The position numbers and the translations under genes were made by a program. Below are positions 16,122-20,283 of a stretch of DNA of 64,000 nucleotides, one piece after another; the stretch's first letter is position 1; each line of letters opens with the position of its first letter. The stretch is from Thiomonas bhubaneswarensis (GTDB taxonomy: Bacteria > Pseudomonadota > Gammaproteobacteria > Burkholderiales > Burkholderiaceae_C): contig NZ_LIPV01000011.1 in assembly GCF_001418255.1 (NCBI RefSeq), forward strand, positions 1-64,000, read 5' to 3'. Below the pieces are notes generated by a model, which was given only the letters and a program-made list of their open reading frames with translations, had not been told where the DNA came from and did no database searches.

Positions 16122-16508
16122 ATGGAACTCAACTTCTTCTCGGCAACCAACGCGCACAAGGCCTGGAAGAAACGGCTGCACGATTGCGTCAGCGGCTCGT
16201 GCAACACGCTCGACCCCGCCGTGATCGCCTTGGACAACCGCTGTGACCTGGGCAAGTGGCTCTATGCGATTCGCGACCAGCGCCCGGCGCTGAGCGCCGA
16301 CACGCAACGTCTTTTCACCCGCTTGCTCGAAGAACATGCGGCGTTTCACCGGGTGGCGGCCGGCGTGGTCGAGCAGGCGATGGCCGATCAGCAGAAGGAA
16401 GCCCTGCAGCAACTGCAGGCCGGGGGCGAATATGCCCGCATCTCCAATCAGGTCATCGGCACACTCGGCGAGCTCTATCTCAAACGCCGCGAATTCGGCA
16501 TGGATTGA
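16122..16508 (+). CDS. Stand-alone CZB (chemoreceptor zinc-binding) domain protein
   Basis: 128 residues consisting of one CZB four-helix domain. The zinc ligand pattern is visible: His12 (NAHKAWK), Cys41 (NRCDLGKWL), His72 and His76 ([10 protein letters not shown]). CZB domains sense zinc or oxidants in chemoreceptors and in DgcZ, where CZB controls a GGDEF domain in cis. Here there is no output domain, so it probably acts in trans. AGGGAGGG precedes the ATG. It is divergent from the small membrane protein/diguanylate cyclase pair, which suggests a split sensor; that link is inference. Confidence 0.85.
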
Positions 16509-16557
16509 TCCATGCCAAGGCGCTGAGAGTCAGAGGGCGGTCTGCGACAATACCGGC

Positions 16558-17646
16558 ATGACCGCCCCTCTCGCCAACGACACCTTCCTGCGCGCCCTGC
16601 GCCGCCAGCCCACCGACTACACCCCGCTCTGGCTTATGCGCCAGGCCGGGCGCTATCTCCCCGAGTACAACGCCACCCGCGCGCGCGCCGGGAGTTTTCT
16701 CGGCCTGGCGCAAAACCCCGACTTCGCCACCGAGGTGACGCTGCAGCCGCTGGACCGCTACGCGCTGGACGCGGCCATTCTGTTCTCCGACATCCTCACC
16801 GTGCCGGATGCGATGGGGCTGGGCCTGCGCTTTGCGGCGGGGGAAGGCCCGAAGTTCGACCGCCCGCTGCGCACCGAGACCGATGTCGCCGCGCTGGCCG
16901 TGCCCGACATGGACAAGCTGCGCTATGTGTTCGATGCAGTGGCGCAAATTCGTCGCGCCCTGGTGCAGAACGGCACCCAGCGCGTGCCGCTCATCGGCTT
17001 TTCCGGCAGCCCGTGGACGCTGGCCTGCTACATGGTCGAAGGCGGTGGCAGCGACGACTACCGCACCGTCAAGACGATGCTCTATGCCCGCCCCGATCTG
17101 ATGCACCGCATTCTTTCGGTGAACGCCGAAGCGGTGGCGCAATACTTGGCGGCGCAGATCGACGCCGGCGCCCAGGCGGTGATGATTTTCGACTCGTGGG
17201 GCGGCGTGCTGGCCGATGGCGCCTTCCAGGCCTTCTCACTGGCGTACAGCCAGCGGGTGATTGCGGCGCTCAAGGCCCATGCCGACGCGGCCGACGTGCC
17301 GGTCATTCTGTTCACCAAGGGCGGCGGCCAGTGGCTCGAAGCCATGGCCGACACCGGAGCCGACGCCCTGGGGCTGGACTGGACCACCGATCTGGGCCGC
17401 GCCCGCGCCCGTGTCGGGCACAAAGTGGCGCTGCAGGGCAACCTCGATCCTACGGTGCTGTTCGCCCCGCCCGAAGCGATCGCCACCGAGGCCCGCCGAC
17501 TGCTCGACTGCTTCGGCCCGGTCGAGGCTGGCGCGGGGCATGTGTTCAACCTGGGGCATGGCATTTCGCAGTTCACGCCACCCGAGCATGTCTCGGCTCT
17601 GGTCGAGGCCGTGCACAGCCATAGCCGCCAGTTGCATCGCCGTTGA
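16558..17646 (+). CDS. hemE: Uroporphyrinogen decarboxylase
   Basis: Decarboxylates the four acetate groups of uroporphyrinogen III to give coproporphyrinogen III in heme synthesis. 362 residues with the N-terminal signature [20 protein letters not shown], the active-site Asp region [51 protein letters not shown], the second signature [18 protein letters not shown] and C-terminal [19 protein letters not shown] 16558 gives the family N-terminus. Followed by a DnaA-box-rich intergenic region and priA; the hemE-priA pair is common in Burkholderiales. Confidence 0.97.
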
Positions 17647-17744: not shown

Positions 17745-17932
17745 TTATGCACATTCTTGGTTCCTTTGCAGCGCAGCAAGTTGATCACAGACTTGACTTG
17801 AAATTACATCACTCAAGTTATTGATTTTCGCTAAAGTTTTCGATATTTCACAATTTGGCAAATTGTTCTGCACAGGCTTATCCACAGCTTGAACGCCGAC
17901 CCGCACAGGATTGATGCACAGAGTTATCCACA
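17745..17932 (+). promoter_or_regulatory. Array of DnaA-box-like sites with an AT-rich stretch (372-base hemE-priA gap)
   Basis: The gap 17647-18018 holds two perfect DnaA boxes, TTATCCACA at 17878-17886 and 17924-17932. Each is preceded, 12 bases earlier start to start, by a degenerate box: TTCTGCACA (17866) and TGATGCACA (17912). A near-perfect TTATGCACA lies at 17745. All face the same way. Between the first site and the pairs lies a conspicuously AT-rich 17795-17865, unlike the rest of the window, with an ACTTGA/TCAAGT inverted repeat (17796-17818). This fits a replication origin or a DnaA-controlled promoter for priA. No other gene is seen in the gap. Confidence 0.6.
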
Positions 17933-18018
17933 TCCTGCTCCACGCTTCCATTTGCCCTGCATTCACGCCGACTTAGCGCCGATTTCGTCCTCCGATTTTC
18001 ATCACCCGCGCTCAACTC

Positions 18019-20283
18019 ATGTGCTTTGTCCATCAGGTTGCCGTTGACGCGCCGGGCCTTCAGTTGCTCGATTACAGCGCCGAGACACCCCTCGCCCCGG
18101 GCACGCTGGTTCGGGTGCCGCTGGGTCGGCAGACGGTCAGCGGCGTGGTGATGGCGTGCACCGCGATGGACGATTCCCCGCGCGCCATCGCGCTGCGACC
18201 CATCGAGGCGGCGTTCGACACCCTGCCCCCGCTCGACGCGGCCTGGCGCGAGCTGCTGCAATTTGTCGCACGCTACTACCAGCGCGCCGTGGGCGAGGTC
18301 ATCGGCGCGGCGCTGCCAGCGCAGTTGCGCAACCGCAAGCCCGCCGATCTCGCGACGACGACGCCCCAGGATCTCGTTTACCGCTGCACCGAGGCTGGCC
18401 TTGAAGAGCTAGGCGCCAGCCTCGCCAGGCGCAGCGTGGCGCTCTGGAGGCTGGCTCGGGCGTTGGGCGTGCCCGGCCCGGAGGCTGCCGACGCGCCGCC
18501 CGACCCGGCGGATTCCGCCCCCCTCGCCCTGAGTGAGGCGCGCAGCCTGCATCCTCAGGCACGACAGGTCTTGGCCGAGTGGGCGCAGGCCGGTTGGGTG
18601 GAACTCGTCGATACCGCGCCCTCGGCCGCGTCGATGCCCGCACCCGACCTTCATCCCGAGCAGGCGCAGGCGCTGCAGGCCATTGCCGCCAGCGACGGGT
18701 TTGCGCCCTTCCTGCTGTTCGGGGTGACGGGCAGCGGCAAGACCGAGGTCTATCTGCAGGCTGCATCGCAGGTGCTGCAGCGCAAGCCCGGCGCGCAGGT
18801 ACTGGTTCTCACACCAGAAATCAACCTCACGCCGCAACTGGTCCGCCGTTTCGAGCAGCGCTTCGGCGCGGCGCATCTGGCGGTGTTGCACAGCGGACTG
18901 TCGGAGGGCCAGCGGCTGCGCCACTGGTTGGCGGCGCACACCGGGCGGGCGCGCATCGTGCTCGGCACCCGACTGGCGGTGCTGGCGTCGATGCCGTCGC
19001 TGCGGCTGATCGTGGTCGATGAGGAACACGACACCTCATACAAGCAGCAGGAAGGCGCCCGCTACTCGGCGCGCGACCTGGCCTTGTGGCGAGGGCGGCA
19101 GCTCGGCATCGCGGTGGTGCTCGGTTCGGCCACACCTTCGCTGGAGAGCTGGCGCGCGGCGCAGACCGGGCGCTACACGCTGTTGACCCTGACCCAGCGC
19201 GCCAGCGGCGTGCTGCCCAGGGTGCGCCTGGCCGATACTCGGCGCGACCCGACCCTGCGCGCGAGCGGCGCCCTGATCGGCCAGACGCTCGACGCCGCGC
19301 TGCGCCAGCGGCTCGAACGCGGCGAACAAAGCCTGCTGTTCCTCAACCGCCGCGGCTACGCCCCGGTGCTGAGCTGCCCCGACTGCGGATGGATGTCGGA
19401 CTGCCCGCATTGCGATGCCCACCTCGTGTTTCACCGCACCGACCGCACTCTGCGCTGCCACCACTGCGGCTTCCAGGCCGCCGTGCCCCGCGCCTGTCCG
19501 GGCTGCGGCAGTCTCGATCTGCAGCCCGTGGGCAAGGGCACGCAGCGGGTCGAGGAGGCGCTGGCGGAAAAATACCCCCAGGCCCGCATCGCCCGCATCG
19601 ACGCCGACAGCACTCGCCGCAAGGGCGCGGCGGCAAGCCGTTTCGACAGCGTGCACGCCGGCGAGGTGGACATTCTGGTGGGCACGCAGATGGTGACCAA
19701 GGGCCACGACTTTCAGCGGGTCACGCTGGTGGCCGCGCTCAATCCCGACGCGGGCTTGTTCACCCACGATCCGCGCGGTCCCGAGCGCCTCTTCGCACAG
19801 CTCATGCAGGCCGCCGGGCGCGCGGGGCGAGCGGTGTCGGATCAGGATGGGTCCGAGGCATCGGCGCCGGAGATGCTGGTGCAGACGGGCCACCCCGAGC
19901 ACCCGCTGTACCGGGCGCTGGTCGCGCACGACTATCCCGGCTTCGCCCAGGCCGAGTTGATCGAACGCGAGCGCGGAGGCATGCCGCCGTTCACCTTCCA
20001 GGCGCTGCTGCGCGCCGAGCACCGCAGCTTCGATGCCGTGGTCGAATTTCTCGCCGCGGCACAACAACTGGCCGTGCCCCTGGCGCAGCCCCTAGGCGTG
20101 ACGCTTTACCCCCCGATTCCCGCCGCGCTGGCGCGCGTGGCCGATGTTCACCGCATGCAGATGCTGCTCGAAAGCCAGCATCGCGGTGCCTTGCAGCGCA
20201 TGCTGACTTCATGGCGCGGCGCCCTCGCCGCCCAACGCTCGCGGGTGCGCTGGGCCGTGGATGTGGACCCGCTCGATTTCTGA
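18019..20283 (+). CDS. priA: Primosomal protein N' (PriA helicase)
   Basis: 3'-to-5' superfamily 2 DNA helicase that reloads the replisome at stalled forks. 754 residues. The N-terminal 3'-end-binding domain (VAVDAPGLQLLDYSAE, GTLVRVPLGRQTVSGVV) is followed by Walker A GVTGSGKTEVYL (about residue 235), DEEHD (about 334) and LGSATPSLES. A zinc-binding insertion contains paired cysteines (CPDCGWMSDCPHC, then CHHCG and CPGCG, about 452-497). The helicase C lobe follows, with VGTQMVTKGHDFQRVTLV and QAAGRAGR. No clear ribosome-binding site precedes ATG 18019. The DnaA-box array lies directly upstream. Confidence 0.96.
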   Translation: MCFVHQVAVDAPGLQLLDYSAETPLAPGTLVRVPLGRQTVSGVVMACTAMDDSPRAIALRPIEAAFDTLPPLDAAWRELLQFVARYYQRAVGEVIGAALPAQLRNRKPADLATTTPQDLVYRCTEAGLEELGASLARRSVALWRLARALGVPGPEAADAPPDPADSAPLALSEARSLHPQARQVLAEWAQAGWVELVDTAPSAASMPAPDLHPEQAQALQAIAASDGFAPFLLFGVTGSGKTEVYLQAASQVLQRKPGAQVLVLTPEINLTPQLVRRFEQRFGAAHLAVLHSGLSEGQRLRHWLAAHTGRARIVLGTRLAVLASMPSLRLIVVDEEHDTSYKQQEGARYSARDLALWRGRQLGIAVVLGSATPSLESWRAAQTGRYTLLTLTQRASGVLPRVRLADTRRDPTLRASGALIGQTLDAALRQRLERGEQSLLFLNRRGYAPVLSCPDCGWMSDCPHCDAHLVFHRTDRTLRCHHCGFQAAVPRACPGCGSLDLQPVGKGTQRVEEALAEKYPQARIARIDADSTRRKGAAASRFDSVHAGEVDILVGTQMVTKGHDFQRVTLVAALNPDAGLFTHDPRGPERLFAQLMQAAGRAGRAVSDQDGSEASAPEMLVQTGHPEHPLYRALVAHDYPGFAQAELIERERGGMPPFTFQALLRAEHRSFDAVVEFLAAAQQLAVPLAQPLGVTLYPPIPAALARVADVHRMQMLLESQHRGALQRMLTSWRGALAAQRSRVRWAVDVDPLDF

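Follow-up and report, generated by a model that had tools for sequence, protein, structure and literature searches.

The 64,000-nucleotide stretch of Thiomonas bhubaneswarensis DNA that was analyzed here (contig NZ_LIPV01000011.1, positions 1 to 64,000; hereafter the window) contains an array of DnaA boxes between hemE and priA. We read this array, with a probability of roughly 0.6, as a stand-alone nucleoprotein element of DnaA and integration host factor (IHF), a predicted relative of the Escherichia coli DnaA-reactivating sequence 2 (DARS2) that would tune or titrate DnaA in an IHF-gated manner and would not act as an origin. A preliminary description of the site had reported five DnaA boxes in one direction between the two genes, and all five were located where it had placed them, over a span of 188 bp. 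It had interpreted them as a candidate chromosomal origin or, failing that, as a titration or regulatory site. The origin part of this interpretation was not borne out, since dnaA lies elsewhere and no skew switch occurs at the element in four related chromosomes; the fallback was upheld and sharpened by conservation of the exact spacing in relatives and by membership in a DARS/datA-type family. The features of the element are listed below, where G049 is a near-closed congener, G032 belongs to a second genus, and L118 and L119 are loci from Proteobacteria metagenome-assembled genomes that are near the window in kinship.

17745..17753, + strand: left DnaA box TTATGCACA, from the sequence; identical in G049, G032, L118, and L119
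17768..17790, strand not assigned: conserved block, approximately TGCAGCGCAGCAAGTTGATCACAG, between the left box and the IHF site, from the alignment
17798..17867, no strand: AT-rich stretch, 73% AT, the top 70-bp value in the window
17814..17826, + strand: predicted IHF site CAAGTTATTGATT (YAANNNNTTGATW), a perfect consensus match in the sequence
17866..17874, + strand: weak DnaA box TTCTGCACA of the inner pair, with a counterpart box in G049, L118, L119, and G032
17878..17886, + strand: strong DnaA box TTATCCACA of the inner pair, from the sequence and relatives
17912..17920, + strand: weak DnaA box TGATGCACA, equivalent to DARS box III and situated 12 bp upstream of the right box
17924..17932, + strand: strong DnaA box TTATCCACA, equivalent to DARS box II (the right box), 95 bp before the priA start

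The boxes are 12 bp apart within each pair and 46 bp apart from pair to pair. The motif TTATNCACA occurs three times in the window, always within the array, a number that was reached in none of 100 shuffles (mean, 0.26). With one mismatch allowed, 13 DnaA boxes were found in the window, five of them inside the 188 bp, and the biggest cluster across 60 simulated sequences comprised two boxes. Chance clustering was ruled out by the shuffles and the simulated sequences. The 70 bp from 17798, which had been called the most AT-rich stretch, do rank first in the window (73% AT; runner-up, 63%). The perfect IHF consensus within them had escaped that description, and a gene for IHF alpha is present in the genome.

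The spacings of 121, 12, 34, and 12 are unchanged in G049 and in the second genus (G032), whose PriA is 66% identical to that of the window, and across five relatives 46 of the 58 bases in the boxes and the IHF site are invariant, compared with 75 of 314 elsewhere. Conservation of the boxes in related genomes had been named beforehand as a test, and the array is kept with its exact spacing. The inner weak-strong pair is an extra, found only in the genus group of the window and in G032. The block TGCAGCGCAGCAAGTTGATCACAG at 17768 to 17790 aligns identically among four genus-group members and is mostly retained in G032.

The survey of priA covered 80 named loci, nearly all from Betaproteobacteria; the family of the window, Burkholderiaceae in the GTDB sense, is common to many of the sampled genomes. 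Most of the 80 loci contained a left box and an IHF site, followed by a weak box and, 12 bp further on, the strong box TTATCCACA. The distance from the left box to the right box was either 172 to 180 or 186 to 191 bp in the extracted betaproteobacterial loci, two classes about one helical turn apart. Of 53 betaproteobacterial priA elements, 37 had TTGATW at a distance of 95 to 112 bp upstream of the right box (consensus, TAAGTcaTTGATT), and a box with up to two mismatches was located at -12 from the right box in 90% of 63 priA elements. The right box lies 83 to 438 bp from the priA start across loci with constant internal spacings, indicating that the element itself is conserved, not its distance to the gene. 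Acidovorax-like genomes contain two tandem copies of the element before priA (L131, L144, L160, L165, L183, L162, and L179), and G020 contains three (C24:156400-157262). At +40 from the right box (about 17970 to 17981), AATCAAnnACTTAGCGC is conserved in many Comamonadaceae and is in part a second IHF-like site; the window retains only ACTTAGCGC.

Genomes were further searched with the pattern TTGATWN{94,99}TTATCCACA, and the same pattern reversed served as the control. Matches were obtained in 117 of 250 Burkholderiales genomes and in 97 of 229 genomes of the class Gammaproteobacteria, compared with 4 and 5 matches of the control in the respective sets. Among the matches tested (n = 61), 79% had a box with up to two mismatches at -12 and 51% had a reverse box at +14, with values near zero at other offsets; the cores of E. 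coli DARS1 and DARS2 show identical -12/+14 spacings. A profile made from about 20 pattern matches outside Burkholderiales recovered the priA elements (to 1.8e-17), E. coli DARS1 (1.5e-5), DARS2 (1.2e-3, along most of the locus, IHF site included), and datA (5.5e-3, the pair only), these E-values referring to about 3.1 Mb of selected sequence. E. coli oriC gave no profile match (E, 3.2) and was ruled out as a relative of the element. Most matches from the class lie away from priA, and the element is therefore independent of that gene. Their neighbors vary (hemE-priA, xseA, and others), and four matches outside Burkholderiales also adjoin priA. A Fis-like palindrome is visible by eye in many family members and is not clear in the window copy.

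We compared the window copy with the defining features of DARS and datA. Box III was found 12 bp before box II (TGATGCACA at 17912 and TTATCCACA at 17924), and the perfect IHF consensus at 17814 to 17826 occupies a relative position comparable to that in DARS2. Box I at +14 is missing, whereas it is present in roughly half of the wider family and at an xseA locus of the same genome, and no reverse-oriented DnaA box was found anywhere within the element. Identity with a canonical DARS was rejected at box I; judged by its sequence, the window copy is related to DARS but falls outside the definition of one. As in datA, the boxes all point in one direction (five on the + strand), and an IHF site lies between two strong boxes (between 17745 and 17878/17924).

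Several observations weigh against a kinship of the element with these loci. The place expected for the reverse box I, 17938 to 17946, differs from it by eight mismatches, and a reverse box I with up to two mismatches was detected in only 29% of the betaproteobacterial priA elements. The window copy itself matched the profile weakly, in three pieces with E-values of 0.3 to 1, and its kinship to the profile goes via relatives such as L119, which matched over its full length at 1.6e-4. In datA the weak box 7 adjoins box 2 and precedes the IHF site, whereas the pairs of the window follow that site. The similarity in layout could also reflect convergence rather than descent.

We propose that IHF, by bending the 188 bp, would bring DnaA at the left box into contact with DnaA at the right pair, and that the DnaA-IHF complex would then alter or hold the DnaA pool after the origin-side region is copied. 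A negative, datA-like activity (DnaA titration or ATP hydrolysis) appears likelier than a DARS-like one, because box I is absent and all boxes run one way around the IHF site, but this is a guess to which we give somewhat less than even odds. Should the skeleton prove to serve DnaA control, regulation of initiation through DNA loci would be far older and more widespread, and the finding would hint at a possible relationship between DARS and datA.

Burkholderiaceae have a second copy, with a complete DARS core, at a great distance from dnaA and often adjoining xseA. A stricter pattern that included box I, with up to three mismatches, matched 26 of 30 genomes, and its control matched none. In closed genomes the distance from dnaA, as a fraction of the half chromosome, had a median of 0.83 for the non-priA sites and ranged from 0.03 to 0.36 for priA (Mann-Whitney P, ~1e-8, which is optimistic because the sampled genomes are related). 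The xseA locus of the window's own genome (L301, G000 C15, 2740-2795) has a DARS-type core, III-12-II-14-reverse I, that reads TTTCCCACA, GAG, TTGTCCACA, GAAAG, ATGGGATAA, corresponding to box III, box II, and reverse box I at DARS spacings, with an IHF-like TAAGTTATTGA upstream. This locus emerged from inspection of the xseA flank; the search of the genome for the full DARS core (up to three mismatches) returned a sole match, on a plasmid-like contig. Two perfect DnaA boxes, face to face and 14 bp apart, were also observed among TGACACTTGAGGGGC repeats (L052, G000 C16:3399-3428); the site looks like a plasmid origin, and C16 is therefore probably a plasmid. It is possible, though doubtful, that Betaproteobacteria control DnaA from two loci, a DARS on the terminus side that has the complete core and is often by xseA, and an origin-side, DARS-derived priA element that lost the reverse box and became a datA-like negative regulator. 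If so, DARS and datA would represent two states of a single, ancient family of elements.

The two neighboring genes named in the preliminary description were confirmed by family matches (TIGR01464 and TIGR00595).

16336..17646, + strand: hemE, uroporphyrinogen decarboxylase (TIGR01464, 414 bits)
18019..20283, + strand: priA, primosomal helicase PriA (NF004067, 920 bits; TIGR00595, 544 bits)

The true start of hemE is probably further inside than the start of the open reading frame. The array adjoins priA in almost all Betaproteobacteria examined and at four loci outside Burkholderiales, and in the window it ends 95 bp before the priA start, as expected if it were a DnaA/IHF operator of the priA promoter that ties expression of the restart helicase to the replication cycle. 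We consider this unlikely, since the right box is found anywhere from 83 to 438 bp before priA though the internal spacings hold, the same skeleton occurs by xseA and many other genes, and a search of the hemE-priA intergenic region for a promoter-like site found none. A role in priA expression may nonetheless exist alongside DnaA control.

A working DARS that promotes ADP release despite the absent box I, perhaps with the inner pair as a substitute, is less probable still. The rest of the DARS skeleton is present and the genus of the window has the extra pair, but in E. coli DARS it is the head-to-head boxes I and II that drive DnaA contact and ADP release (PMC8682772), and the element contains no reverse box. 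Plain DnaA titration, with neither nucleotide exchange nor hydrolysis, we regard as improbable: multiple strong and weak boxes, the origin-side position, the tandem copies in Acidovorax-like genomes, and the three copies in G020 are compatible with it, but titration alone needs no fixed spacing, single direction, or IHF site, and all of these are conserved.

The proposed chromosomal origin was examined by the position of dnaA and by GC skew sampled along chromosomes. In the window's genome, dnaA is on another contig (C14), with DnaA boxes around it. In G049, the minimum of the sampled cumulative skew adjoins dnaA, 91 kb from priA, and the fine skew flip is about 8 kb beyond dnaA. In G128, the element at 336 kb has a skew of about +0.06 on either side, and the flip is at 20 to 40 kb, after a dense box cluster at 14.3 to 18.4 kb. 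The skew is negative to both sides of the element in G121, and in Cupriavidus pauculus the flip, at about 152 kb, coincides with a different box cluster, while the priA element is at 95.5 kb and has the same skew sign on either side. It is thus very improbable that the element is oriC, even though its boxes, IHF site, and AT-rich stretch are jointly origin-like and, in 22 genomes, its distance from dnaA amounts to 0.03 to 0.36 of the half chromosome. Groups of DnaA boxes accompanied by IHF sites and AT-rich DNA can pass for origins, and caution is warranted. A Caulobacter-like hemE origin was likewise rejected: the neighboring gene is common to both, but the skew and family evidence oppose it, direct comparison with Caulobacter lying outside the analysis. 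Dense DnaA-box clusters were observed at or near the skew switch at L311 (G620 C1:151737-153125), L213 (14309-14816), and L219 (14353-18444); clusters of this kind, 14 to 100 kb from dnaA, are candidates for the true Burkholderiaceae origins, which would then not adjoin dnaA.

A search of the literature, which covered open papers, found no report of a DnaA-box element with priA, of DARS2 with priA, or of either in betaproteobacterial genera. Conservation of DARS2 has been described for E. coli-proximal gammaproteobacteria only (PMC8682772). In the searchable literature, DARS/datA-type elements are known from E. coli and close relatives only, and the priA element is a variant of such known loci.

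Among known systems, the cluster at the skew transition of Cupriavidus metallidurans, with three perfect boxes in 213 nt (PMC2864759), is similarly a DnaA-box cluster on a Burkholderiaceae chromosome, but it coincides with the skew switch; the probable equivalent in C. pauculus (151.7 kb), whose first three perfect boxes also lie within 213 nt, is 56 kb from the priA element. E. coli oriC shares with the window element the DnaA boxes, the IHF site, and an AT-rich stretch, but it lacks a match to the family profile, and the window element lacks the skew switch. The window copy shares with E. coli DARS1 and DARS2 a strong box II that is preceded, at 12 bp, by a weak box III. Like DARS2, which works with IHF and Fis in E. 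coli, it has an IHF-type site upstream of box II (TTGAYW at 92 bp in DARS2 and 103 bp in the window copy), and the wider-family profile can be aligned along DARS2. Unlike E. coli DARS, it has no reverse box I at +14, adds a left box and an inner pair, and has priA as its neighbor, toward the origin side, instead of mutH or bioD-uvrB. The window element differs from datA in its neighboring genes and in the weak-strong pair, which comes after the IHF site and not before it, and any hydrolysis activity is putative. It resembles datA in its origin-side position, in the weak box 12 bp before a strong box, in the strong boxes that flank a single IHF site with all boxes in one direction, and in its length, about 188 bp compared with the 183 bp of minimal datA (PMC5742627).
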